From Tetrahymena thermophila SB210 (Eukaryota; Ciliophora; Oligohymenophorea; Hymenostomatida; Tetrahymenidae), in assembly GCF_000189635.1 (NCBI RefSeq), contig NW_002476322.1, forward strand, positions 248,001 to 312,000: a DNA stretch of 64,000 nt, written 5' to 3'. The translations under genes were made by a program, and so were the position numbers. This document shows, one piece after another, positions 41,765 to 62,522 of this stretch (positions are counted from its first letter, which is position 1; the number at the start of each line of letters is the position of its first letter). Under the pieces are notes generated by a model. That model was not told where the DNA came from, did not search any database, and worked only from the letters and a program-made list of their open reading frames with translations.

Positions 41765-44700
41765 ATGAATTTAATTTACAAAAAAACAAAATTTACCTCA
41801 AAATATATATTGAAGTAATTGATAGATAAATCAGATAGATTTAAACTAAGAACAATGGTAGTTCAAAAATTATGCAACCTCATCAAAGGTATTGATTTAT
41901 TTGGTGTGCCTGTTGCTTTAGTGATGAACAAAGAGACTCACTATAAAAGCTTAGCAGGTTCTATTATGAGTATAATCGCAATTATCTTCATCTTCGCATT
42001 CTTTTGGCAAAGTGATTAAAATTAATTTTATTCGTTTATTTGAGGATGTTAATGTTAAAAAATAATGAAATAGATTTTTTAAGCTTTGTTAAAAAGGATA
42101 GGGCATAATTCACTATAGATAATCAGTACTAATAATCTCCTGACTTAATTTAACTAAATGAAAATAGTTTTATGTTTGCTTTAGGGTTCGAACAACCAAA
42201 TAATGACTTTACTATATATCCCTTTTTTAATATTACTGTGATTTAAACGTATTTATTGATTAATTAATTTGTTAATAATTATTAAATCAAAGTATTTTCT
42301 TGATATATTATTTTTAGCTATTATATTATGGAAGGAGGTACAAAAAAAACTTAAATTATTTACTTAGATATGGAGCCTTGTTCTGAAAAGCACTTTAGTT
42401 TAATGGGTCAAGATAAATATAGTAAAATAACTATTTTAAACAGTAGGAATTTTCTTTGTCCTAGGTAAAATAATATAAAGAGATATAACAACTTTTGTTT
42501 ATTTAAGATTTTTATTTGGATACATTATCTGAAATTTAATCAAACCTACATACACCCATCCCTTCGCACCAATCAAAATCTTTTTTTTGTAAATGTTTGC
42601 ATTTTATTTTAGTGGTGGGAAGTAAATTTTAATAATAATAAATAATCAATAAGAATTCTGGTCAAATTATTAATTAATAAGAAAAAATTCAATTAATAAA
42701 ATTAAAAAAAGCTATGCTTTTCAAACTATTTGTTAAAGATATATCAAAAAGTTTGTAAGTATTAAGACCCTTTTTAGTATAGTGGAAAAAAACTTGATAA
42801 GAAGTTTTTATAAAAAATTAAGAATTAAAAAAAATAAATAGTCTCTTAATTAGTAGCGAAATGTTATCATTTGAATACTTGAATCGATGCAATGATAACT
42901 AAATAAATTTAAAATATCTATCATACATCAATATTTGTGTAATATAAAAATTAAAGACTTTTTATTTTTCAATTAAAGACTTTTTTAATAATCTATAAAT
43001 TACCCGAAATAAACAATACAACTTACTTCTTCTTTTATTCTTAAATTTATGAGTATTTTAAAAATTTATTTATATTAGTTTAGGCTAAAAAATAGAGGCA
43101 TAGGGCCTATACACAAATGATTTGTTTTCTTTTATTAAGATAGTGGTTACAAGGTGTGATCCTAATTTCAAGAAATATGATAAACGAACTTGGAATCCAC
43201 TAGATTGTGGTACTCAGAGCAATTACGACGCATATATAAAATATGTTTAAAGACCAAGATTTATTTTTTATACTACTAATTTTAACATTATTCCTGCAAA
43301 TACAAACAAATATGCTTAGGGTTATATTTAGGATTAATAAAGTTTTACATTTTCACCTAATTTTATGGTTAAAAGTGCAGATATTTATATCAAAAAAAAT
43401 ATCATTCACACAGATGAAAATGTTATACTCACAAAAAACCCAAGAGAAGAAACCTATCTTACTCTAAATATCGATGAAATAAAAGAAACTTCTGACTATA
43501 TCACTGGTAGTAGTACTTTTGTAACGCTCTACTTAAGAAGAAGTCCTTATACTATCACTATAAACCGTTCCTTTACTAAAATAGCTGAGCTAATGATCCA
43601 AATAGGAGGTTTGATAAAGTGCGTATTTCTTGTGTTAGGATTTTTTTTAGCGAAATACAATAGATTTAATTTTCGATTAGAATTGGCTAATAAATTATAC
43701 GAATTTAACATCTTAAACTCCCAAAAGAACAAAGGCGAAAAGCAACAAAATAATAAAATAACTATTTCCTCTATAGAGCAAATCATGGAAAATCAACTCC
43801 TTTGCAATCCAAGCTAAAAAAATTTAAGTTAAAATAACTATTCACAAAAAGATTTTGATAGATAAAATGGTATTAATTTACATTTATAAATTTTTTACAA
43901 TTATTTATTTATTTATCGAATGAGAGAGTTTTTATTAATGCAAGAATTACTTAAGTGTTTTTCACTCACTTTTTTTTAAGGTTCTAATAAATTTTAACTT
44001 ACATTTTATCAAACATATTTAAAATAAATTTAATAATTAATTAATTTTTTAATATTAAATAAAGCAAATAAGTAACCTTAAAGTGGTGAATAAGAATCTA
44101 ACGTTATCATCTAAGATAAAATCAATTTAAATGAAGACAAGAATACGATAAATTTTAACCAAGTTGAGCCAATATCTGCTGGAGGTCCACAAAAAAGTAT
44201 AGAAATTCTTCGTTAAGCCTAAAAATAAAATTAGAAATCTATATTATTAGATTATGTTTAGCGAATTGCTGATAAAAGTGTTAAAATAAAAGGGTCTATC
44301 AGCTATTTCTTGAATTACTTAACATTTGGGAAATGCCTTAAAACAGAAGAGAATTTATTAATAAAAAAAGCGCAAGAATACTCAAAAATAGATTTAGATA
44401 TTTATGTAATACTTGATAAACTTTAAGAAATAGAAAAACTAAAAAAGATAATTTTTTCGCCAGAACAAATAACTTTATTTAACTTCATTAAAAAGCCTGT
44501 TATAAAAAATGAAAATTAAAGCAGTAAAAACAAAGTATAAATAGAAAATAAAACTTTGCCAGCAAAATCTAAATTTGTGCATTAACTTTATTTAAAACAA
44601 GATAAAGATTAATAACAATAAATATTAGCTGATAACAATCACTTTATGAAAGAAAGAGATACTTTTACCACATTTTAAGCTTACAAAGTATTTTATTAAT

Positions 44701-45512
44701 TAAAAAAATATATCAATTTAATAAATTAATTTATTGTTATATTATAAAAGAACCTCTTTGATGCTTATAAGGTAATCAAAAACTCAGATGAGTAGAAAGA
44801 TGAAATGTAAAATTCACTTTTCTCTTCTGGATTCAATTTTAAAAATATAAAAAATTAAAGATAAAATCAAAAGCTCATCAAAGAGTTAGGAGAAGAAATA
44901 TAAAATCTATTTGAGCTCTAAAGCGTAATAAGTTAAAAAAATATTGGAAATTCAGAGATATCGCAGACTAATTTAGAAACAAATAATTAATTTTAGATGT
45001 TTTTACAGCTCTCACCATTAAATAAAAACCATAGATATAAATGTAACAAAACAAAATAGGATTAAAATAAGATTAGCAAGTATAAACCTGAAAAATAAAA
45101 TTAGAATGGATAACAAATTTAAAGTAAGTAGTAAATTGATTTAGTACCAGATACAAAAAATAACTCTTTAAATTATGAGAAATAACTTGAAGATTAAGAA
45201 TAGGGAGGAGGATTAGTAATTTAATAAAAATATTAATAATCATTATTTAGTTAACATAAGTTAGAAAATGCTTTGAGTAGAAATAAAGAAAATTAAAATG
45301 AATTAGCATCATCTTAATTTAGTAACAGCTTGACTGTCCCAGAGTATAAAAATAAAAATTTACAAGCCAATTCTCTTAATGATTCAGATATTAATTTCAA
45401 AGAAATTTCATTTAATAAAAATCTTGTACTTTAATTAAAGCATAATCCAAATGACCTATAGCATAATTTTTAAATAAAAACTAATAATAATATAGAAGAT
45501 ACAAATAGCTGA
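41765..45512 (+). CDS. Two-transmembrane ciliate-family protein with Gln/Asn-rich tail (member 1), multi-exon
   Basis: Start ATG 41765, with ATG 41853 as an alternative giving an N-terminus like the other members. Stop TGA 45510-45512. The N-terminal signature KGIDLFGVPVALVMNKETH leads into TM1 (SIMSIIAIIFIFAFFW). The first intron is inferred at 42012-42073. Ectodomain exons contain SFMFALGFEQPNNDF, MEPCSEKHF and VTRCDPNF...CGTQSNYDAY with conserved Cys. The segment RSFTKIAELMIQIGGLIK then leads into TM2 and the motif RLELANKLYEF. The long cytoplasmic tail holds a conserved block (SYFLNYLTFGKCLKTEENLL; DLDIYVILDKLQEIEKLKK; LFNFIKKPVI), then Gln/Asn-rich sequence ending DTNS. Function unknown. 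The topology (short cytosolic N-term, TM, Cys-containing ectodomain, TM, long cytosolic tail) suggests a surface or organelle membrane protein. Confidence 0.8.
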
Positions 45513-46429
45513 TCATAAATAAATATAATTTACTGTTCTTATTTGAGAATAATTTAAAGCAATTTTTGATATATAGAAAATTATTTTATAAATTTAAAAA
45601 TAAAATTCAAAATATTTTTTAATTAATTAATTTTATTTTCACTTTTTGTTAATAAATATAAAATGTAATTTTTATATTTTTTATTGAAAAATATTTTTAA
45701 AAAAAATCTATTATAGCACTTTGCAATAAAAAATTCATTATTAATATAAAAATTATTTGAAATATCACAAATCAATATATCATGGTTAGTTATATTTCAA
45801 ATGCAGGAACAGCTAAATTAACTCACTATAATAATATTTTTAAAATAAATTGTATTTTTAATTTATAACAATATAATATTAAGTTATTGCTTCTTAAGTA
45901 CTAATATAAAATTGTAAAATCTATCAATATACTTACCTGTTTGGTTTGATAGTTAAAATTTACTAATGCTTTTAAACTAATTTATTATACATAAATATTT
46001 ATTTATGTAAAATTGTTTTTTGGATATTTCTAATAAAAAGATTTATTTTAATAATATCTCTTTTTGTTACTTACTACACAAATAAATAAAAGAAACTTTA
46101 CGACCAGTAGAACTATTTAGAAGTTTTTTAATTTTTAATAATGATACAGTTAAATTCGTTAAATAATTTATAAATATGCATTCTAATTTACAAAAGTGGT
46201 GTATGTATTTTTTTATAATATTTATTTATTTAATTAATTCATACCATCATTTGCATAATTTATTTTAGTAGTGGGGGTAATCACACGATAAATATAAAAA
46301 TAGAATAAATAAATGAATTGATTTACTAGAACTTACATACATAATTGCATATGAGGACTTAACTTTGCCTGTCAATCTGCTTATATTTATTAAAATTTAA
46401 AAACAAATATAATTAGTAAAATATCAAAT
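45513..46429. other. Intergenic region between family members 1 and 2
   Basis: AT-rich, no coding frame supported. It should contain the promoter of the gene starting at 46430. Confidence 0.5.
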
Positions 46430-49400
46430 ATGGATAACTTAGTAAATTTCATTAAGAAAATAGACTTATTTGGAGTTCCTGTAAGTCTTGTTATGAATAA
46501 AAAAACTCATTATAATACCTTGGTTGGATCTTTTGCAAGCTTAGTTGGAATCCTGTTTGTTGCCTTATTTTTCAGAGATTGTATTAATTCAAAAAAGCTG
46601 AATTAAATATTTGATTTTATTGATTTTTTTAATAATTAAAGGCTTTATGGGATATGTAACAAAGAGTAATGTTCAATTTTAAAAAGAAGAAATATACTCA
46701 TAAAATCCACAAAGATTACCTCTCTCTAAATAATCATTTATGTTTGCGCTAGGTATTGAATAGCCAAAAAACGATTTTACAACTAATCCATTATTTAACA
46801 TCACAGTTCTGCAGACGTACTTATCATATTAAATCATGAATTTTAATTATGCTTACGCTTAATATTTATTAGAACATATATAATGACGGGTCAAGTAAGG
46901 ACCAAAACAGCGACTTAAATCTAAATGGAACCATGCAGTGGAGAACATTTTTAATTATCTGGAGAAGAATAATACTCTAAAATGAATATCCTCTCATCTG
47001 GAAAAAATTTTATATGTCCAAAGTAAAAAAATATTTTTTTTATCTTTAGATTATTAATAAATAAATAAATGTTAGCACATATCTTATTAATTCTTTGATA
47101 GAACTAATTTTTTTCAAGACTCTTCAGAATTTTTTTCCAAAATTTATTGAAATCAAAAGTAGTGATTATTTAGCATTCAAATTGCAAGCTTAACTTGTTA
47201 AATATTGCATAGTATTTTACAAGTTACTATTTAATGGCTAAAAGCAATCACACATTATTTTTTAATTAATCTATTAATAAAAACATAAATGAATCATCTT
47301 TAAACATTGAATGAAATATTTTGCATTTAATTATCATATCCAATATAATTTATTGTAAGGCTTGTTTCATTTTTAAAAATAAATAAATAAATAAAAAAGG
47401 CTTAACTAGGAGCTTGAAGTCGAAGGAATATATACTAATGACAGATTTTCATTTATAAGAATTTATGTTACAAGATGCAACTAATCAGAGTTACATTTAA
47501 GTTAAAATAGCTGGAGACCTTAGAAATGTGGCTCTGACGATTACTTTAGCAGCTTTATTTAATCAGTTAAATACCCTAAGTTACTTATATACACAACTAG
47601 TTTTAATATAAATCCTTAAGATACAACGAATTACGCAGAACCTTATATATAAGATTAGTAAACTGTCTAATTCTCTCCTTATAACACTTTCAAGAATGTA
47701 GATTTATTCATCAAAGATGTAGAGATAAACACAGACAATGATATATTTTTTTAGACTAGTGGAACTGTCGAAAATTTTATTACTTTTAATCCTACTAATA
47801 CAATAATTGTTTAAGATAACTACTTTAACAATTCTGATTAACCCTTTCTATAACTGCAACTAAGAAGGAGCTTAGACTCTGTAAAGATATAAAGGTCATT
47901 TAAAAAGCTAACAGAGCTGATGTATTAAATTGGAGGCCTTGTTAAATGCGTATTTTTATTACTAGAAGTATTTGTATCTAGATATAACAAATTTTAATTT
48001 CGTTTAGAACTCGCTAATAAGCTGTATGATTTTGAGTTAAGCAGCAATAAGAATAAAAAAAATTAAGAAATAGCCAGAACAGAAGAATAAGTATCATAAA
48101 AAGATAGTACAAATACACAGAACCAAAGAGAATCAAAAAATTAAAATGCTAATGATGCATTACCTCATGTTATAGATCTTGGAGATTTAAGAAAAGACAG
48201 TAAAAAAGGTATCTTATAAATTAAAAGCGCTTCAAATCAATTGGTTTCAACTGCTTCTGGTATCAAAACATATCTAGACAATGAAGAAAGTCCTAAAGTT
48301 TAGAAGAAAAAATAAATTTACTAAAATAAGAGATAATTGTCTATTCTTTCAAATGAAGTATAACAAAACTAAGTAAGTCAGCTGTAACTAAATTAAGAAT
48401 AAATTAAACTGACTGATAAATCAACACTTAAAATAACTGTTTATGCATAACAATAAGTTAACTCCTTCAGAAATCAACTTTCTTAGTATTTTTAATAAAT
48501 AATTTCTAAATCTAAAAGAATGAAAGCATGCTTTAGTTACTTCTTAAATTACATTTCTTTTAGAAAGTTATTCAATTCTGAGAAAAACTATTTAATAAGA
48601 AAAGCTTAGCAGTTCACTAATAGAGATTTAGACATTTATGTTATTCTTGATAAATTACAAGAAATAGAAAAAATAAAAAAAATGATATTAAATTAGGAAT
48701 AACTAACTCTCTTCAACTTTTTTCCTAAACCAGTAATTAAATAATAGCAAAAATTATACTAAAATAAAAGTTTTAGAGACTTAAACATGTAGAAGAAAGT
48801 AGCAAAAGAGTTGAACAAATCAACAAAATTGGGATGTTCTGCTCTGAGCTCCTCTACAAATCTTTCTGGTGACAATTTACTGAAAGAGAGATAAGAATTT
48901 ACATCTGTAGAAGCCTATCAAGTAATAAAGTTAATTTGATATTTAAGATAAAAAATATTATTTTATTGACAAAATTAGAATTTATTTGATGCCTACTTAC
49001 TCTTGAAGAAAAACAACGATCCCAACTTAGAAAAGTAATTTTATAAGATTTTAAACTTAAAATTACAAAAATTATTTTAATTAGAATTAATTAAAAATTA
49101 TTCGAAGAGCTAGGCAGTGAATTATTAGAAATTTTCTCTTAACAAAGTTCTTAAATTTAACAAGTTAACTAATAGTAATCTAATTAACCTTTAAGTTCTG
49201 ATAAGTCTGATAAATAAGCTAAGAAAAAAATATTTTTTCAAAATGTTTAATAGAGTAATTTAAATGAAATTTCATAAATTTAATAAAGCTGCTTGTTATA
49301 AAATGAATCTGTAAATTATAATTAAACTTTAGAAGAAAAGTAGCTGTAAATTAATTATTTAAGTAACTTGATAAAAATTAATGATTATAAGTTGTCATAA

Positions 49401-49634
49401 ATTCATAAATCTAGTTAAAATTTTTAATTATGTTCAGAAAATTGTATTAAAGATGACAGTTTTATGAAAGTACAAGAAGACTTATAAGAAATAGCGTCTG
49501 AAAATAACAGAATTAAACCCTGTATTAATAAAAACTTTATAAAAAACTAAAATGCATTAAAAAAGTACCCAATTGATGATAATTAACTAAATTTCAATAA
49601 CTAATAAACAACTATATAAAATACTTCAGTTTGA
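46430..49634 (+). CDS. Two-transmembrane ciliate-family protein with Gln/Asn-rich tail (member 2), about 870 aa
   Basis: ATG 46430 gives the family start MDNLVNFIKKIDLFGVPVS with THYNTLVGS and TM1 to about residue 55. Following exons give FMFALGIEQPKNDFTTNP, MEPCSGEHFQLSGEE and, from about 47405, a long exon. This exon has the Cys-containing ectodomain (VTRCNQSELHLS...KCGSDDY), RSFKKLTELMYQIGGLVK, TM2 and RLELANKLYDFE. It continues with a hydrophilic stretch and the conserved cytoplasmic block (SYFLNYISFRKLFNSEKN; DLDIYVILDKLQEIEKIKK; LFNFFPKPVI). Two small introns near 48932 and 49038 restore NLFDAY and KLFEELGSELLEIF. The Gln/Asn-rich end stops at TGA 49632-49634. Adjacent to member 1 in the same direction, so likely a tandem duplicate. 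Confidence 0.82.
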
Positions 49635-49912
49635 GTTATTTTAATTTTACAAAAATATTTATTTTCTAAATTAACTTTATTGTAATTTATCTTCTATATT
49701 TTATATTAAATTATATACTGTATTTTAGTCAAACATGTGTTTTTAAAAATACCTATTTATTCAATGAAATTGTAATTTTATTTAATTTTAGTTAAACAAA
49801 TAAACAAAATATTTACAATAAAATATAAACATAGTAATTGCAATAAACAAAATATTTAAATGAGCATTAAAAACATATATTTGATAGTTGCTGATTGCTT
49901 TCGGTTTCATAT

Positions 49913-52900
49913 TCAAAAGTATTCAAATTATTAAAAAAAATTAAACTTTTAAATAATTAATCTTTAGTTAATTAAATAATTAGCAAGATTTTTTTTATTA
50001 GTAATGATTTCTTTGATAAAATCCTAATTCAGTCTTTGATACTAATTTATTTTAGGATTCTTTTTATTCTCTATATCTTATTGACTAAAATAATTATCTT
50101 AGCTATTTTATGTTAAGTCATACAATATAATATCGATATCTAAATCTTAGGAATACTGTTTTAATTTTTAGTTATCAGTTTGAGAAATATTTGGTATTTT
50201 CTGGTCAGTAATTATTACTAATATTCTCTTGATCTGTTTTTTAAAATCTATTTTTTAGTTTTATTTCAACAACTGTTTAACTTTAAACTCATGATATTAA
50301 TTTTAGAAAAAATTTAAGAGAGCTTTCTACATAAAATATTTAAAATAATTGCCTTATTTTTCTTCAAAACATTACTTACTATCTGGATACAAGCGCTTTT
50401 CCTTATCAAAATTGATAATAATATTTTAAAATAAATTTTTTAGCTCTAACATTATTGCATACTTATCTTTGAATGCAGATAAATCTTTAACCAAAGTTGT
50501 TTAAAATTTGTTATTTAAATGAATGTTAAATCTGTCATTTGGTTCTTAAAGTATTTTTAATACTGTCGAACTAATTATTTTAGAGGCTTAAAATTAAGAC
50601 ATTTGCTGATTGCAATCAATAAGGAAAGATAAATTCAAACTAAACTAACCATAGCTGCTCTAAATACTATAAATAGGTAGTAGTGAAAGTTTAGAGTTTT
50701 TAATAATTTACAAAAGTAGCTTAAGCACTTTACTATTTAGATAAGTCAAGGATGTTTAATTTTATTCAAAGATTTGTGTCAGGAGCTCAGCAGCTTAAGT
50801 AAAATTCTTTAAAACAAACATTACATTGGCTTGATAAAAAGTAATCATCGAATTAAATATACATTCAGGTATTTCTTAAATATTCTTTTTGCCAAATATG
50901 TTATTATTTTTCGATTTTTAATCAAAAGAATCATACGGATTAATATTTTAAGATTACCAAATTGTATTCCCTTTTAATTCTTAGGTTTCATCAGCTTTTT
51001 AACTTTTTATTTTATGTGCTTTTGTGTATTTTGGTTCACTTATTTTTATTGTTTTCTTTTGATTCAAAGTAAGATTTAATTTGGATTCTTTTTCATTTTA
51101 TTTATATTTTTTGCTCCCTTCTTATTTACTTAACACGATTTAATTGGATGATTTATTACCATTACTGGTTTCACCACTACCTATAATTTTCATAATTTTT
51201 CTTTTAAGCAAATTTGATAAGCTTTGCTTTTTCTTTTCTATTTTACTAAAAAAAATATCAGGCGAGTTCAAGGTTTATTCTTTATTAGAAGTCGTACAAT
51301 TTTAAAATTCAGGACTTTTATTAAAACTTTTAAATTTTTAGCTTAACAATTGACTATTATTTATATCTTAATTCTAATTTAATTCATAGTCGATGTCTTC
51401 ATTAAGAATTGTGAGAAGAGCCTACCTTTCTTACTTATTCTTATTTTGAAATATATGCTGAATCATTTTATTTCTAAACCAAGTTATGTAAATTTATTTT
51501 GAAGCTAAACCATATTCAAAAATTGACTTTACTGGCTATAAAGATTTCTATAAGGGTTTAGTAATTTCAAGGTCAATGTCTTATTTAGATTCATTTCCTA
51601 TCTGAGATTCTTCAAAATGTTAGTCTCCAACACAGCTTTATGGTTTAAATCTTTTTTAGACTAAAAGTTTTTTTTCATGAAAAGAAATAGACTTGAAATA
51701 ATTTAATTAAGTAAAACTATCCTCACTTTATATTTTTAAAGAGCTAGTTGAAGATTTACAAAAGGAATTGTAGCTTTGTTCCAAGTTTTCGTTTATCTAG
51801 TAAAGTTATTTGTTTTATCCTGAAGAATTTTTGCAAAATTAAAAAGAATTTTTAGAGTTGTCTAAAGAGTCACTTAATTTTTTTTATACTTTAAGCAAAC
51901 AATTTTTATGATTTTCATTTTAATAGGAAGTATCAAGCATAATTTTTTAGTTACTTATAAACAATGGAGATTATTCAAATAAATTAGTTTAATAACTTGT
52001 ATTTTAATTTTAAATTCTTTTAGAGCTTGAAATATTTTAATTTAGAATAGAAATGTTCTGATTTGGAAAAAAATGCTTTTAATTAGACAGAAAAGGACTT
52101 TGATTTGAAAATAAACTATTTTAATAAGTAATTCGTGAATTTTAGGGTTAAATTCTGCTTTAAATATTGCTGGGAGAATTTTAACTCTAAGCCCTTTTCC
52201 TTTGCAGTTAAACAGAGCTTTAGAAACTTTTAGAAAGAGATAGTCTTTTATTTTAATTTAGATTATCAAAATCACTATTCTAGAGTTCTTTTTAGTAATC
52301 TTTAAAGGAAATGAATGCAGAGTTGATATATTTTTGAGCTTTAAGAGCTTGTTTTGAGTCAATTAATGAATCTACTAAATTTAGTGCGATAACTAATTTG
52401 TTGAGATTCACCTATTAAGGAACATTTTCAGCTAAAATTCCTAGGTTAATCATGATCTATTTATACTCTTTCCATACTGATATATCTTAATTCCTTTTCA
52501 TCCATTTTTTAATAGAAAGTTAGTATGAGTAAATTCTTTTAAACTTGATTACTAAAATATTTTCATTAATATCAAAATTAAAAGGATAATTCATATCATC
52601 ATAAAATCCCAATTCATAGTCAGCTTATATGATTGCACTTTAAAATGCCTATGCAGCTTCTATGTATCTTTTTTGTTAGAAATGTATCATACCAATATTA
52701 TTCCAGCAAATACCTAATGCTCTATGTGAATGATTAGTAGCTTGAAAAAACTTAACAGCCATACTCCATGACAGTAAAGAGTTGTCTTTGTTTCCACTTG
52801 TTAATTATAATGATGCATATTTAAGAGTTTAAAGCAATATTTCGAAAGATTCAAACAATTCATAAAACTCTTTTGCGAAAAGAAAAATATTTTTTTAATC

Positions 52901-54671
52901 AATAATCTAATTTATAATTTCGTCTTCAAATACAAGAAGACATGAGTTCTCTTTAGTTTCGTGCAATGTATTTAAAATTTATATTAAATTATCCAGAGAA
53001 TTTAAAAATTTATTTGTTATTTAGATGGTAGAAATAATTGTAAAGATAAGAACAATAGAAGAAAGCAATAATCCAATTATAAATGTATTGACATTGTATC
53101 TATAAACTGTTTTTTGCATCGTTTCAGATAAGTTTTAAATATTATCGTAATCAATAATAGAAAAATTTACAAAAATATTGTCAGTATATTGCTATCCGTT
53201 TTGATAGTATGTGACATTTCCCTAATAAGCATTTATGTATTTTTTAACACCTTAACATTCAACTTATAAACCAAATATTCCTGTTTGAATATCGAGGCCA
53301 AAATAGCCTAGATCGTCACCCTGACTATAATTCTAATGTGTTTTAAAATAACTTTAAGGAAATTTAGACATAATATAATCAATAGTTTAATCATCGAATT
53401 CATATCTTTTTAGTAATTCTCTTAATGTGTAAGGTGAAGTCTAATAAGTTATATTATTATTTTTGTCATAAACAACTTGTTATGTATCTGGAAATCTGTA
53501 ATTAATTAATTAATAAAGTTGAATATTTTTATGATAATTAAATAGTTTAATATAAATGAAAGCCTAATGTATTTTTGATTATTAAATATAAAGAATTAAG
53601 TCATATCCTTAAATTAATTTTAAAAATGTTATCAATCACAAATAAAAAGGTCATTTTATAATTTTTTTGATAATAAATTTCATTACATTGTAAAAACATA
53701 TGAGTCTAAATTTTAAAGAGACCTACTCATTAAAATTTACAGTTAATTAAGGTTGTATATTTAGCAAATAACTGAATGCTTGGAGCTACTATCACTATAT
53801 TATAGATAAAATAAATAAATATATTAATTTTATTAAATTGTTAATTTATTACTTGAGCAAGTTTTAGCACATTCCTACTTTTATTTAACTTCCTAAAAGA
53901 TAAGGATTTGGGTATTATATAATGTTTTAACTAAATGTATTTTAAAACCAATTACTACATCTCACATCATAATAGAGCTCATTAGAATATTAACAATTTC
54001 TTGGATTTTTAATTGAAGCCAAGCTATAATTATATGCTGGAGTGAAATAAAAGATTCCACTATTAACTTTAGCGAGCTAGAAGGAAGTAAATTATGAGGA
54101 ATTATACTATAAATCTATGCTTTTAATTATAAATTACATAAAAGTACCACCTAAATCATATTATAGGAGGTCTTATTTTTAATCTTCACTTAGACTAATT
54201 ATGTTTGTGATATTTTTGAAGTACCTATTGTTTCAAAAAAATAAGAATAAATATTTATAGAATGTATTGATTCTAGATAATACTTTACCACTCATTTAAA
54301 TAATATGTATTCTATGATTTCATATTTTATATACTTATTGATGAGATGTTTAAAGAATAGTCATTTGAATTAATCAAATATCTTGAATATATTGGGTTTA
54401 TTTTAATCTTTCCTTAAATAATTTTATTTTAAAACTTTCCAACTATTATAAATAACGAAGTCAGTGTTTACATTGTAACACCTATTTATTGGTAGCTGAT
54501 TAGCATTCTTTAATCATAACTATCTTTTTTCTAAGTTTCCATATACTAAACAACATTTAATGTAGCATTAAGAGAATCTCTATAAGAAATGTAAATAGCT
54601 TAAACTAATATTAAAAAAACTAAAACAATAGGAAGCGTATAAATAATAAATATATTAATTTTTAAAGTCAT
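49913..54671 (-). CDS. Membrane sensor-like protein with TPR and C-terminal vWA-like domain, about 1,350 aa
   Basis: ATG 54671 to TGA 49915-49913. An N-terminal anchor (residues about 5-25, INIFIIYTLPIVLVFLILVQ) precedes an ectodomain of several hundred residues spread over small exons (to about 53100). TM2 follows (FIIGLLLSSIVLIFTIIST, about 53085-53025), then a helical linker with KFLNSLDNLIQILNTL, as after TM2 of Cache/HAMP receptors. A TPR-like unit is WNNIGMIHFQQKRYIEAAQ (about 52720-52650). A long Gln/Asn/Ser-rich stretch leads to a C-terminal region with LSFLIDCNQQMSQFQ and RILVIITDQKIPN. These are the first strand with MIDAS-like Asp and the fourth strand of a von Willebrand A fold (about 50670-50120). 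The MIDAS DxSxS motif is altered to DCNQQMS, so metal binding is doubtful. An N-terminal Cache identity is inferred only from architecture. Likely a surface signal-input scaffold. Confidence 0.72.
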
Positions 54672-55943
54672 CCTCAGTTAACTATGCTTCTTATTGCAGT
54701 ATTTTTATATTAAAAAGGAATCTCTTAAATATGTTTTTATTAAATGACAATCAATAATAAATTTCTACCTTAATTTAAGATGATATATTAAAAATAATTA
54801 AAGTAGAACTAATAAGAAATAAATAACTACTGTATGAATTATTTAAAAGTAATTATTTTTATTTAAATACACTAAATGATTCGTAATATAGCAAATGAGG
54901 CCCTTTTCTCTAAATTCTTATGATAATTTATTGATTATACACTCATAATAGTTTATATTAAAATCTCAATGACCAATTGATATAAATAAGTAAATCTGAA
55001 TGATAAACAGAGATATTTAAATATTTAAATTAATTTTAAAAATATACAATTTTTTACTGACAAAAATTAATTTAGAATTAATCAAAAATTTAATATTATA
55101 ATAAATCAATTTTACACTTTTAATTTAGAATTTTTAGAGCTGTTATAGATAACCTAAATCAATTTTAGATAATTAATCATAAATGAGGAAGTAACAAATA
55201 AATATATATATATATAAATAGATATAAGCAAACTGATAAATAAAATAATAGAATATTTCATTTCAAAAAACTATATTTTTAATAATTTTTTTTGTAAAAT
55301 TAATATTTAAAAACTCTGATTACTCTTGATAAACTTCAATTTTCTATAACTAAATAGCAATAATGTTTTTTGACATAGAAAAATAAAATAAACACAACTA
55401 AAAACTCATTAAAATAGGTTTTTTTGAGACTATTTAAAATATGAATAGAATTTGAATCATCAATAGATTTACTGTTAAAGCAGGGGAAATGTTAATAATA
55501 TAAATTAAAAATCATAATCAAATATAAAATTTAAGAATAGAATAACAACTTTATGCCAAATTTATAAGTTAATTTATTTTATTTAATATATTGATAATTA
55601 TCACTAAAAATCATATAGATTTCTTTATGGAAAGGTAAGCGTTAGAAGCAAACCAAATATTTCTTAGAAAACATAACAAAATATAATACCACAACTTTTT
55701 TGTAAATTAAAACATATGCCAACACTTCTTCTAAAAGTTTTTCTCAATCTTTAATTTTTCAATTATTGATGCAAATTTTCGACAAATTTTATGATAAATT
55801 AGGCAAATCTAAAAGATTTTGAAAAAATTGTGGACCAACTAACTTTTGATGATATTTTTGTTTTAAAGAAAACAATCAATTTTTAAAATAACTTAATTAG
55901 AATTACAATTTTTGTTGTAAAAAAATTTGAAAACAAAACGAAA
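54672..55943. other. Divergent intergenic region, no gene seen
   Basis: AT-rich, about 1.3 kb between outward-facing genes. A slightly more complex stretch at about 55730-55940 directly precedes the transporter start and may be its promoter and 5' UTR. Confidence 0.5.
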
Positions 55944-56903
55944 ATGACAAGCATTATCACAGACATATTTCACAAGACTTAGAAAATTGTTAACTATTAT
56001 GAAGAAGAAAGAAAAACTTATACTGCAATTATGTACATGCTAGTATCAGGAGTGTTTTTTATTCTTAGTGGGACATTTATAAAAAAAGTTACAAATGTTT
56101 CAGCAATGGAAATATTTTGTTTAAGGTCAGTATGCTCATTTTTAATTAATTCATCAGTTATTGCCATCAAAGGCGATTAAAATATCTACACTAAGGATAA
56201 AGAAGCCTATGGTTTGCTTTTGAAAAGAGTCCTCTTTGGTTTTATAGCAGATTACTTCTTTGTTGCTATGCTAAAGTATCTAACCATGGGAGATTGTACC
56301 TCTATTGTAATGACTTATCCTATATTTTCAACAATACTAGCTTCAATTCTACTAAAGGAACATGTTTCTAAATATTTAATTTACAGTATTTTTTTTTGTG
56401 TAATCGGAATCATATTTGTCTGTAAGCCTCCTTTCATCTTAAACTACTTCTTTGATTCTTACAGTCAATCCTAAAGCCCAAACATATTCCTTGGTTTTTT
56501 GAATGGACTTGGTTTTGTTACTTTTTTAAGTTTTTCTATAGTAACTACAAGAAAATTAGGCGGAAAAGTCACAATCTAAGTTTTGTTGTAATATTTATAC
56601 TTTTGTACTATCTTTGCCTCAACTATATTTATAATGAGTAGCGGAGATGAAATTAAGAGCTATGTTACTCTTAACAATATATTTATGCTTATAGGAACTG
56701 GCTTTAGTTAATATTGTGCTAACATATTCTATAATAAATCATTATTTTTAGAAAAAGCCACAGTTGTAATTCCTCTGTCATATACCTAAGTCATATTTAG
56801 CTTCTTGTCTGATGTCTTCATTTTCAAAGTTGCTCCAAATATCTTTAGCATAATAGGATGCCTTTTTATTGTATCAGGAAGTTATTTAACCTTAAAGTAA
56901 TGA
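55944..56903 (+). CDS. Drug/metabolite transporter (EamA/SLC35G-like), 319 aa
   Basis: Single exon from ATG 55944 to TGA 56901-56903. After about 30 hydrophilic residues come ten hydrophobic segments, the usual number for DMT-superfamily carriers of 280-350 residues. Family-type features are visible. Helix 1 (YMLVSGVFFILSGTFIKK) is followed by a helix with EIFCLRSVCSF, matching the E-x-x-x-x-R-S pattern of EamA proteins. Helix 4 begins YLTMGDCTSIVMTYPIFS, like the A/GD-A-xxI-xxxxP-x-xxxL pattern. Then KEHVSKY occurs before helix 5 and the second half repeats the fold (NKSLFLEKATVVIPLSYTQ). EamA proteins move small metabolites or nucleotide-sugar-like solutes across membranes; substrate and membrane cannot be told. 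Flanked by unrelated genes. Confidence 0.88.
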
Positions 56904-58273
56904 AAATAATAAAAATCTAAAATCTAGTTTCTTTCTTTATTTAAAACACTAAAAAACTGCCCTAGCTCTATATTATTTAGTATTTTTTTAAATTTATTAC
57001 ATATATCGATCGTATCTAAATTAATTTACAAAAATAATCTATTTCTTCAATCTTTTTAATCTTTAAAAAAAACAACTAAATTTAGAAAACTAAAATATTT
57101 TGATGATAAAAAGTTAAATTCTATAAAATAATTTATTTTTAAATGCTTTGGATTATTTGCTGAAATAAATATATTGATGGATGAATTAATTTTATAAAAT
57201 TAGTAATTTATTAAAATATGTATTTTAATTTAATAGAATAAATATTACTTTATTTAAATAGATCATTTGCAATAAAAAAACCAAATTTTAAATTATTAAA
57301 TAAAATATTTTCATTAAATTAAAAAAGTATTCATCCTTTTTTAATTGGACATTTTATGAAGCAAAATATGGATTAAATTTGAAGTTTTAAAATAATTAAT
57401 TGGCTTTATAAACTATTATTTCAAAAAGAAATATGAGTTGAATTTATTAAGTAAATACTTTTATTTAATAAAATAGATGATTTAAAGATAATCAATTTAA
57501 AAAAATAAATTTTTAATACTAAAATTTAGTAATTCCTTTAAATTAAGGAGAAGCAAATATATAATTAAATACATTTTTCTAGTGTAAGAAAGGGTTGATT
57601 GTAATAAGGATAATAAATTTAATGATTCTCACTTAAATAATTAGTCTATCGATTAGCATTATGACTTACCCTAAATCTCAAAAATTTAATATTAAATTTT
57701 AAATAATAAATCTTTAAAATAAAAATATTTAAAAAATAAGACTAGAAAAAAGAGTAGTTACTATTGAAAAGGATGTTATCAAATATATATTATTTTTGCT
57801 AGTAAGCAGTAATTAGAATTAGATTTAAAAAGAACTTAATTAATTTTATGAGGAAGTGAATTATTATTTAGTTTTTGAAATTATTAATAACTAATTTTCT
57901 TTTTATCAATAGTTAAATATTCATTAAGATGCTAAAATATCTTAATTAACAAATTGAAGGATGATTATTTTAATAAATTAATATGAATAAATGAATGTAA
58001 ATTTGATTTGTTGATCAAAAGCTATTTTTAATTAATTTCTACTTCTTTTTATTTTCAAAAAATCGAATCTATAATTTTACTTACTATCATAAAATAATTG
58101 ACTTTATGAACGATGTAGAGAGTTAAGTATCTTTTAGTTGAATTCATTGGTTATTTTGAAATAACTAAAGAAAGAACAACTATATTATTTTTAATTATAT
58201 AGCCAATAATTAAATTTAATAATTTTGTTTATTAGTTTGAGCAAAAAGTAGATAAATTAGCAAGCAAAGCATA
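56904..58273. other. Intergenic region, no supported gene
   Basis: About 1.4 kb, AT-rich. Short open frames around 57740-57910 are not convincing on either strand. Contains the promoter of the gene at 58274. Confidence 0.45.
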
Positions 58274-61200
58274 ATGACTTTCTTCTAAAAATCGGGCAAA
58301 CTAATTAAATAATTTGATTTATTTGGTACTCCTATAAGTCTGAATTTAGATAAAAAGACTCATTACCAATCTTACCTGGGAGCTATCATAAGTATTTTAA
58401 GTTTGCTATTGATTACAACTCTATGTTGGAATAGTAATATTATTATTTTTTATTACAAATTACATTTTAGTAGAAATGTCTATAATTCTTTTATATTATA
58501 CAATAATAGTCTTTATCGATTATTTGAACCAGGCTAACTTGCTGATTAATACACAAAATGAATATAATCCAAATCCTAGCATGCTAGAGCTCAATTAGGA
58601 TAACTTTTTTTTTGCTGTTAATATTTAATAGAATGATAATCTTTCATTTGCTAGTGTTCCTTATTTCGCAATCCAAGTTGAATAGGGGTAAATAGTATTT
58701 AAAATTAGTAATTATTCATATTCTTCTTTCAAAGTTGCAAAACAAATGAAAAAATGTTGGTATTTAAATAAAAATTAGTTTCGAAATTCTTTACTAAAAT
58801 TATAAATCTAAATATTTTTTTTATAAGTCATGTATAAAACACAAGTCAAAGTAAGAATTAATAATTTAGCGTTATTACTATGTAGAAATGCTAATAGTAA
58901 GATTTAAAAAACTTAGATTAAGATGTTATTAACACAATAAATAGTATTGGTATTCAGAATTTGATATGTCCGAGGTAAATATTTAAACATTTTATTATTT
59001 TGATTAGCTGTATTTATTAAGTTACAATAAGGTCTATAAAAAACCTATAAATTCAATCTTCTTAGTTAGTTATTGTCTATTGGTTCTTCCACTATAAATA
59101 TTAAGTTAAAAATATTTATCTTTTATTTACTTTGATTACTATTACCAAATGTAAATATTCAAAATCAATTATTTTTGTAGAAAAATCTAAAAACAGCATA
59201 ATTAACAAATTTTTAGTACTTATTCAAAATAGTTTGCGTATTTAAATGATTTAATTTAACTTTTGCATTCTAAATAAAAAATAAATAACCAATTTTTATA
59301 ATTAAAAAATTTATGGTAAAATAATCTTACTTTATTTTTCATCATGAGCTAACTAAAACGCCATAGATTTATTAATCTGAAAAGAGAGTTTTTGAATTTG
59401 GTTTGTCAAAATCTTAAGCATTTTATTTAATCAATTTTAGTGATGACCATGATATAATAATGACAATTATGATTATTGATTGATAGTTTTGATATATTTT
59501 AAATAAGATTTTATACTTAACTTTTAAAATGTTTATTTATTAATTTAATTTTTAACTAAAATAGCACTAATTTTAAAATTACATTGTAAGGATAATAGAC
59601 AAGCCAAATTTTTGAGTTCCTAAAAATTAGCGTAATATAATGCGATGAAAATAATAAAGCTTGGGATTTTGATAGATGCGCAACAAGCGCAGAATTGAGT
59701 TAATTTTAAGCTAATAATTAACAATTCAAAGTGACTATTTATCATACTAATTACTCTATTAATTTAAATAAGATGGGAACATTTTATTATAAATACTTGA
59801 GTGAAGAACTTTCATTCTCATTTGTTCCATAGAAAGTATTTAAATAAAATGATGTATTTTTTAAACCTGTACATATACAAAGTGATGATAATAGCTTGAT
59901 AAATTAGTCTTATGATAATATAGATTTGATTATTTAGGATTACTAAGATGTTAAAGAAAACTTTATTTTGGATAGTACAAATAAAGAATATTAAATTTCC
60001 TATATTAGGAGGAGTCCCGAAACTATTAGTATGAAGAGATAATATTAAAAATTTTCAAATGTAATGATTTAGTTTGGTGGTCTAATCAAATTTGTTATTA
60101 CAGTAGCAGGGTTTTTTGTAACTAAATATAATAGTTTTTAATTTACAATAGAAATTGCTAACAAATTATATAATTTTAACTTTAGCAGTAATTTAAAAAA
60201 TGTGAAATCTTAACAGGAATTAATGGATAATAAGAAGACTTAACAAAGTATTATTTAAAATCCAAAAGAACATTTTAAAATTAAGAAATAATCAATACAG
60301 ATGGTTGCCTTAAAATAAGATCTAATTTATGAAAAGGAAAGTAAATAAGCATCACAAATCATAGAAAACGAGAGATCAATATTTAAAGCAATATCTCAAA
60401 AATAACCAAACTAAAAAAGCGAATCCCCAAAAATCACACCTAGATCTCTCAAAAATATTCAGGATATTGAAGATAATGCACAATAATAAAGTAATGATTA
60501 AAAGCAATCCAAATTATAAGTAAATGGGAATGGCGATAAAATAGGAGATGAATAGGTTTAAAAACAGCAAATAAATATTAATTTAAATTTTGAAGCAAAG
60601 AGTAAAATAGTTAAAGAAGATCCATTAATTTAACGTATAGCTTAGAAATTTTAACACTAAAGAAAAGATTCAGTGAAATAACTCTAATTATTCTAAGAAA
60701 ATATACAAAATTAGTACTACACAAATATTAAGAAAAAAAAACAATCTGTTTTTAATAATTGCAATGCTGTAAATAATTAGCAGAATGAATTGTAAGAAAT
60801 AGGAGAGAGCCCTATTGTGAACAAAAACGGGAATGAAAACATATTCAAGCATTAAGATTCAATAATGAACAAACCCACTTTCATTTAATCATCAAACATC
60901 ATATAAAATTTAGTTTATTTTAAAGAGATTGGCTTCAAAAATAAAAAGGACTTCTTGGTTGAATAATTCAGAATTATCATAAACAGAAGCAAGAAAATAA
61001 CTGCTAAAATATGGTATTTTTTGAGGCTCATCACTTGCGGTAAATGCTTCAATACAGAAGAGAATTTTCTGATAGAGAAAGCGAGAGAGTATGCACAAAA
61101 AGATTTAGATATTTATATAATACTTGATAAATTATAAGAAATTGAGAAGATAAAGAAAATTTTACTTGATGAAAATCAGCTAATTCTTTTTAATTTTAGC

Positions 61201-62522
61201 CAGAAGCCTTTAATATAAAAAAATGACGATTTCCTTTAAACCCTAAGTCTACGAAATTTGTAAATTAAGCATCGAAAATCTGAAACACTATCAAATAGAA
61301 ATAAGATGAATTCAATAAATAATACAGCATCCTAATAAGAGTCTCTCTTTTGTAAAAAACTTTAGTATGACAACATTGAAGCATATGAAGTAATTAATTA
61401 ATTAATCATTTTTAGATTATTCTGAATTTTTTATTTAATAGAAATCTCTTTAATGCAAAAAATTATAGGCTAATATTTATTTATTATTTAAATTAGAAAT
61501 TACACAAAGCTTATGAAAATATTAGACCTTACCATTTGCAAGATAAGTAAAATTAATTTAAAAAAACTAAGTTTCTTAAGATTCCATACAATTTAAAAAG
61601 AGTTAGTAGGTAATTGGTCAAGGAATTAGGAACTGAACTGAGAGAAATATTTGAACTATCAAAAATTATAGAAGGACAATCAGACAATACACCTAAATCA
61701 ACTCCAATTAGAAATGCTTCGAAGACATAGTATGAAAATGTTGGATCTAAGCACTTAGAAGATTTAGATTTAAATTAAATTATGAAGCAAAAATAAAACT
61801 CTAAAAATAGCTTACATTTATGTGATGGCATTTACAGCAGTGCACCAAAACTACCGTCAAAAAATCAGTTTGTTAACGAGTGCTTATCTCCAGAAGAAAA
61901 GCCAATTGATGAAAATATAACATCTCATTAAAAGAATCCTTATATTTTTACAAGTTCATCTACAAATAAACCAGGAAGATTATCTATTTTCAATAATATG
62001 AAAGGAGCTTATACACAGGATTCCAATTAGCCAATCGAAGAGAAACAATCATACAGTGATTCTGAAAGTAGCGAAGATAGTGATAGCTCTAAAAGTAAAT
62101 CAAAATCCTCTGAAGATAAAAGCCATGCATCCAATTAATAAACAAAGTCTTCCTAAAAATAAAAACCTAAAATAGATAACATATAAGAAGAATTCCTTGA
62201 TTCAAATTTATCTAATTCACAGTACAACAACCAAAAGAAAGATCTTGACCTATAAATATGCATGGAAAAGTAAAGTTCCAGATAAGATAATCAATTAGAA
62301 TAGCCTAAACTAAAATCTTAAAACTAGTCAGGCTACGACTTGTCAAAAAGTTTTAAAAATAATTTAGCACAAATTTCATTAAATTAATCATTATTTGTCT
62401 ATGATGTTGATTTAGAAAATCTTAACAATTCCTAATACAAACAAACAACAGAAGCAAATTTAAAAGAATAAGACTCTAACTAAAAAGATTTCTATGCTTT
62501 GCCTGATTATCCGAATATTTGA
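58274..62522 (+). CDS. Two-transmembrane ciliate-family protein with Gln/Asn- and Ser/acid-rich tail (member 3), about 1,100 aa
   Basis: ATG 58274 to TGA 62520-62522. The start carries IKQFDLFGTPISLNLDKKTH and TM1 (AIISILSLLLITTLCW), with an intron donor at 58434. Ectodomain exons contain FFFAVNIQQNDN and VIQCDENNKAWDFDRCATS. RQYQKFSNVMIQFGGLIK is followed by TM2 and TIEIANKLYNFN. The tail is much longer than in members 1 and 2 before the conserved block (YFLRLITCGKCFNTEENFL; DLDIYIILDKLQEIEKIKK; LFNFSQKPLI). After a small intron near 61400 it reads VKELGTELREIFEL. A Ser/Asp/Lys-rich repeat-like patch with SDSESSEDSDSSKSKSK lies near 62058-62100. It ends ALPDYPNI. It is separated from member 2 by the sensor-like and transporter genes. 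Confidence 0.8.

Follow-up and report, generated by a model that had tools for sequence, protein, structure and literature searches.

Erv41 and Erv46 have two membrane spans, a large loop that forms a beta-sandwich in Erv41, and short tails with possible COPI and COPII signals (PMC4729789); in the table of that paper, neither Tetrahymena nor Paramecium is listed with a PDI-C hybrid. The group comprises ERGIC1, ERGIC2 and ERGIC3, acts in cargo reception between the endoplasmic reticulum and the Golgi, and is recognised by two Pfam domains, ERGIC_N (PF13850), which covers the region of the first span, and COPIIcoated_ERV (PF07970). Two spans also flank a large ectodomain in the ASC/ENaC and P2X channels and in the CD36 scavenger receptors. 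The same arrangement is found in the products of three genes, g1, g2 and g3, in the 64,000-nucleotide window of the Tetrahymena thermophila SB210 genome analysed here (G000:C209:248001-312000 of a 101-Mb, 445-contig assembly). These genes form a local group inside a very large, tandemly expanded family, which we call family A, and our preferred reading, to which we give a probability of roughly 0.45, is that family A, expanded in ciliates, is an outlying branch of the Erv/ERGIC superfamily of two-span receptors that has a new cytoplasmic block and would act in sorting.

The three genes lie on the forward strand, and their splicing was modelled manually from GT-AG junctions, the frames being verified by script; the ciliate code (table 6), with TGA as stop, fits the reading of all of them. 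g1 occupies 41855..45512 (exons 41855-42011, 42074-42248, 42318-42464, 43079-44687 and 44751-45512; 949 residues, one terminal stop), g2 46430..49634 (exons 46430-46580, 46642-46816, 46873-47022, 47400-48921, 48979-49034 and 49085-49634; 867 residues) and g3 58274..62522 (exons 58274-58433, 58510-58687, 58828-58974, 59565-61389 and 61497-62522; 1111 residues). The outer limits given in a preliminary description of this DNA, 41765 and 62522, hold at the downstream end, where the g3 stop codon ends exactly at 62522, but not at the upstream end, since 41765 is merely an upstream in-frame ATG and the g1 start that fits the family is the ATG at 41855. Introns 1-3 interrupt equivalent residues in phases 1, 2 and 2 in all three genes, with lengths varying from 56 to 614 nt, and this match in position and phase supports common descent. 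The tails hold further introns, and one of 50 nt accounts for an apparent frameshift in the tail of g2. A hydrophobic, AT-rich, in-frame open stretch in the g1 tail (43870-44064) has GTATTA and ATAAAG at its borders and is possibly an extra stop-less intron with a length divisible by three.

Once the exons are joined, the proteins display the elements that the preliminary description had listed, and in the same order: an N-terminal DLFG(V/T)P signature, a first transmembrane span (TM1), an ectodomain with four common cysteines (g1 residues 132, 158, 186 and 203), a Q(I/F)GGL(I/V)K motif, a second span (TM2) followed by (E/I)(L/I)ANKLY, a cytoplasmic block with the consensus LDIY(V/I)ILDKLQEIEK (the LDI block), and a tail that is Gln/Asn-rich as reported, these two residues amounting to 22-25% beyond residue 400. 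Hydropathy gives two spans per protein, and residues 6-24 of g1, adjoining TM1, also exceed the cut-off. Exon 1 encodes the DLFG signature and most of TM1, an ERGIC_N-like module, in g1 (41855..42011) and g3 (58274..58433), and alignment and hydropathy place the same elements in exon 1 of g2 (46430..46580). TM2 with its preceding motif is located at 43599..43661 in g1 (QIGGLIK), 47926..47988 in g2 (QIGGLVK) and 60070..60132 in g3 (QFGGLIK), so that the QIGGL(I/V)K signature originally proposed applies to g1 and g2 but not to g3. Core identity is 46-49% between g1 and g2 and 32-34% between g1 and g3.

The cytoplasmic LDIYVILDKLQEIEK block of g1 (44298..44507; G000:C209:292298-292507) is shared by g2 (48535..48741; G000:C209:296535-296741) and g3 (61012..61215; G000:C209:309012-309215), whose blocks are 62-66% identical to it and were found by the whole-genome search with E-values of 3e-22 and 4e-22, respectively. 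Downstream of the block, all three proteins carry another cytosolic motif, in which AY precedes (K/E)ELGxE, and the cytoplasmic tails extend over about 470-710 residues to end in DTNS, NTSV and YPNI. A Pfam search of the block region matched Hmw_CFAP97 at E 0.85 in one of the three genes, which we take as chance, and the best match of the block among the Protein Data Bank (PDB) sequences had an E-value of 0.48.

A genome search with the g1 block, 70 residues long, yielded at least 143 places at E<=0.01 (E-values from 4e-38 to 0.009), the best 150 of 163 candidates having been scored, and a composed consensus block gave at least 148 (best 150 of 185 candidates scored). The union of both searches is at least 165 places on 58 contigs; such counts are lower bounds, the weakest matches may include chance ones, and the full core was checked in 35 members only. 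Outside the window, the block is 30-64% identical to that of g1, and the nearest neighbouring place is no more than 5 kb away for 79 of the 165 places and no more than 10 kb away for 110. With the last core exon of g1 as the query, 29 matches were obtained in the genome, some of them two per gene. The three genes, presented at first as a three-member family, are therefore only a local group of a very large one. Scans of contigs from prokaryote genomes and from viruses turned up no relative.

Spliced cores were obtained with a purpose-written profile-to-DNA spliced aligner, for which the lower-scoring strand of each locus served as the null; accepted members scored 284-570 bits, and the best null did not exceed 108 bits in any of four rounds. 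From 74 loci we recovered 32 further full cores, two of them (L048 and L049) without introns in the core, and the 42 loci left out were overlapping copies of the same genes, loci of a second family (family B, described below), canonical Erv loci and low scores. The resulting 35-member alignment, including g1-g3, has a median pairwise identity of 29% and confirms a coherent two-span family: the Asp of D-(I/L)-F-G, the TM1 Gly and the TM2 GG are present in 35 of 35 members and the Asn of LAN in 34. The ectodomain cysteines, expected to be invariant, are nearly so, with Cys1 to Cys4 present in 35, 35, 34 and 34 members, respectively; 21 ectodomains contain exactly four, 13 contain one extra, which occupies any of five positions, and a single ectodomain (L052) retains the first two only. 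The L052 ectodomain is one continuous reading frame, and the loss of Cys3 and Cys4 is thus real and not a splicing artefact. Because the two are lost together, in this single case, we infer the pairs Cys1-Cys2 and Cys3-Cys4, and two disulfides, Cys132-Cys158 and Cys186-Cys203 in g1 numbering, would close the ectodomain. N-glycosylation sequons average 5.0 per ectodomain (range 1-9), which suggests that this domain is glycosylated and lumenal or extracellular and that both ends are cytosolic. The ectodomain is also the most divergent part of the protein, with a mean pairwise identity of 0.295 compared to 0.354 for the TM1 region and 0.40 for TM2 and the juxtamembrane segment.

Divergent ectodomains with near-fixed cysteines and several sequons, a tandem expansion on this scale and tails so unlike the short ones of Erv proteins would also be in keeping with a role at the cell surface, whereby members of the same superfamily would have become receptors or adhesion molecules, the shared block would serve in signalling or cortex binding, and the ERGIC-like TM1 would be a matter of mere ancestry. 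We consider this reading, and surface adhesion as part of it, conceivable but on the unlikely side. No diversifying selection was seen: the ratio of nonsynonymous to synonymous substitution rates (dN/dS) in the 14 closest pairs, counting finite dS only, is 0.03-0.35 overall and 0.05-0.35 in the ectodomain, with two pairs saturated for dS in all regions and ten drawn from five genes of one cluster. Within these closest pairs, family-A copies are under purifying selection and look functional, unlike fast-changing antigens. Moreover, each adhesion or receptor domain matches at most one of 17 members in a Pfam survey.

That survey covered 17 of the 35 members at E<=1 and returned 13 families in all. 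ERGIC_N was matched by 11 of the 17, with a best E-value of 2e-5, whereas each of the other 12 families was matched by one member at most. The earlier view that no named family applies thus stands as far as strong matches are concerned, but an ERGIC_N signal recurs and is the only one to do so, and the 'channel-like or adhesion assembly' first suggested receives no support. A trimeric two-span ion channel of ASC- or P2X-like topology, in which the 'QIGGL' of TM2 would line the pore, would indeed resemble family A in its two spans, its large Cys-bearing ectodomain and the location of both ends inside, and the 'IGG' of TM2 recalls the 'DIGG' that ENaC/ASIC channels carry in theirs. However, at E<=10 neither the ASC (PF00858) nor the P2X (PF00864) profile matches anywhere in the genome, both are missing from the 13 families, and the four conserved ectodomain cysteines are fewer than those of ASC and P2X. 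ASC and P2X identity was rejected on the missing genome matches, and we regard a channel as very improbable. CD36/SR-B (PF01130) was also rejected, as its profile finds a single place in the genome (C332:192710), outside the 165 family-A places, and is not among the 13 families.

The ERGIC_N profile matches 45 places in the genome, including the canonical genes (on C314, C399 and C81) and loci of two families. About four canonical Erv41/46 genes are present, as opposed to the at least 165 places of family A. Close to one of them, on the other strand, we observed a further ERGIC_N-like open frame (MNFRKLDLFQ...) in L002 (G000:C399:14626-17898), in a plus-strand frame that starts near locus base 2608. 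An hhalign comparison of the 35-member profile with a profile of four canonical Erv41/46-type sequences from this genome paired TM1 with TM1 at a score of 37.7 (P 3e-4), and TM2 was colinear with TM2 (P 0.16). The score for TM1 was reached by none of 120 controls (highest 29.5), in which columns were shuffled locally with composition preserved and the spans kept in place. The profiles have in common an N-terminal D-x-F and the T-x-x-GG motif of TM1, and a GG at the matching place in TM2.

Family B occupies a cluster on contig C116 (G000:C116:312000-366000; for example G000:C116:354262-355371) and many other contigs, and is itself much expanded: a genome search with one B protein gave at least 111 places, all with E below 1e-54 (111 scored of 385 first-look candidates). 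The six loci inspected by eye are single-exon genes encoding DIFS, TM1, four Cys, TM2 and a Q-rich tail, with the signature 'DIFS...MDPKFR...NCAD...ALCNSTLA', and differ from family A in this signature, in the single exon and in that the LDI block was not seen in any of the six. A profile of 14 family-B sequences can be aligned with that of family A along 313 columns (P 2e-10), which keeps the four cysteines and both spans in register; the score of 72.3 compares with a maximum of 26.7 in 60 controls, none of which came near, and with TM1 removed the score is still 37.0 against a control maximum of 25.0. Judged by these alignments, families A and B are distantly homologous and constitute one superfamily. 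ERGIC_N matches all five B proteins scanned, one of them a 183-residue fragment (E 1.6e-6 to 2.2e-3), one of the five lying above the curated cut-off, and a six-frame search places four C116 loci above it.

Combining the two families strengthened the TM1 match to the canonical proteins (P 2.8e-5). Once TM1 had been cut off, the strongest match left was that of TM2 to TM2, with a score of 22.8 that exceeds all 100 controls (highest 21.7). The profile comparisons thus make homology of TM1 to ERGIC_N and Erv41/Erv46 well supported, with modest support for a link through TM2, and the superfamily would share with Erv41/Erv46 the TM1 module and probably the TM2 GG motif, which is clear in family A. 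The similarity might instead reflect convergence of a Gly-rich first span in a ciliate invention that has no outside relative; similarity past TM1 is weak and the Pfam scores of the window genes fall under the cut-off, as such an origin would have it. We nevertheless hold convergence to be quite unlikely, as the match takes in the D-x-F and T-x-x-GG motifs, scores above every one of the 120 composition-preserving controls, and is accompanied by family-B members that pass Pfam's own cut-off for ERGIC_N.

Several observations weigh against placing family A in the Erv/ERGIC superfamily or against a sorting role. No Pfam family lies above its cut-off in the window genes: g1 matches ERGIC_N with E 1.1e-4 and 22.8 bits and g3 with E 2.2e-3 and 18.6 bits, both below the curated value of 27, and g2 has no ERGIC_N match in the Pfam scan. 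PF07970, the second domain of Erv41/46, is matched by none of the 17 members surveyed, and its five places in the genome are canonical genes only. Chance matches at both ends occurred in 16 of the 120 controls, so colinearity alone is weak evidence, and with TM1 removed, controls equalled or beat family A taken singly in 4 of 100 cases and family B in 46 of 100; the canonical profile was built from four sequences only, two of which (C81) are rough models. The lumenal domain displays no detectable sequence similarity to Erv41/46 in the profile alignment with TM1 removed. Among PDB sequences, the family profile gave one chance-like match (E 0.22) when made from three rows and none when made from 17, although the same kind of search started from this genome's canonical Erv46-type protein does retrieve Erv41 (3zlc), with E 1.1e-8, and is therefore able to see a nearer relative. 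AlphaFold models from three-row alignments had a predicted local distance difference test (pLDDT) score of 36.8 for the last ectodomain exon with TM2, which is unusable, and of 46.9 for the cytoplasmic block, which was not used. Lastly, C-terminal KKxx/GKxx sorting signals were not found in the tails of g1-g3, and canonical Erv41/46 proteins have PF07970 and short tails, whereas those of family A run to hundreds of residues and include the LDI block. Since PF07970, an ERGIC_N score above the cut-off and short sorting tails are all lacking, family A is outside Erv41/46 proper.

If family A is an outlying branch of the superfamily, the divergent lumenal domain of each paralogue may bind its own partner or cargo, and the conserved glycines of TM1 and TM2 could mediate packing of the spans, the probable outcome being oligomers like those of Erv41-Erv46. 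Through the conserved block and the (K/E)ELGxE motif, all paralogues would then be linked to a single cytosolic machinery (coat, adaptor or cortical cytoskeleton). A divergent lumenal part together with a conserved cytosolic block is what would be expected of many readers on one machinery. We infer a sorting-receptor function by analogy with Erv41/Erv46, where the lumenal part reads the partner and a coat reads the cytosolic part, and our best guess is that such readers act in sorting rather than at the cell surface or otherwise. A bolder proposal, which we think unlikely as a whole, is that one ciliate lineage has expanded the Erv/ERGIC scaffold into hundreds of private sorting receptors (at least 165 A and at least 111 B places), each with a disulfide-locked lumenal reader of its own, those of family A being wired through the new shared block, which would amount to a receptor-per-cargo system in a single cell.

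Two other open frames lie within the window near the three genes. An EamA-like drug/metabolite transporter gene is encoded at 55791-56903 on the forward strand as an unbroken frame of 370 residues (Pfam EamA, E 9.6e-21), and an open frame of 1152 residues lies between g2 and g3 on the reverse strand (49913-53371); its only TPR match is a weak one, and its N-terminal part is hydrophobic.

Family A is apparently unnamed, although ciliate databases may list it under a name assigned automatically. A search of the open-access literature, with subscription papers and preprints outside it, found no publication that connects multigene families of ciliates with ERGIC/Erv proteins, and neither family A nor an ERGIC-type expansion in ciliates is described there, including in the sections concerned of PMC6564038, PMC4729789 and PMC3341644, which is not to say that it is absent from print. 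Profile annotation all but misses a family of this size, given that g1-g3 fall below the ERGIC_N cut-off and match nothing else convincingly. If the link to the Erv/ERGIC proteins is true, a group of receptors that is normally tiny would have undergone a large expansion in family A, and the purpose of so many paralogues sharing a single cytosolic block would become testable.

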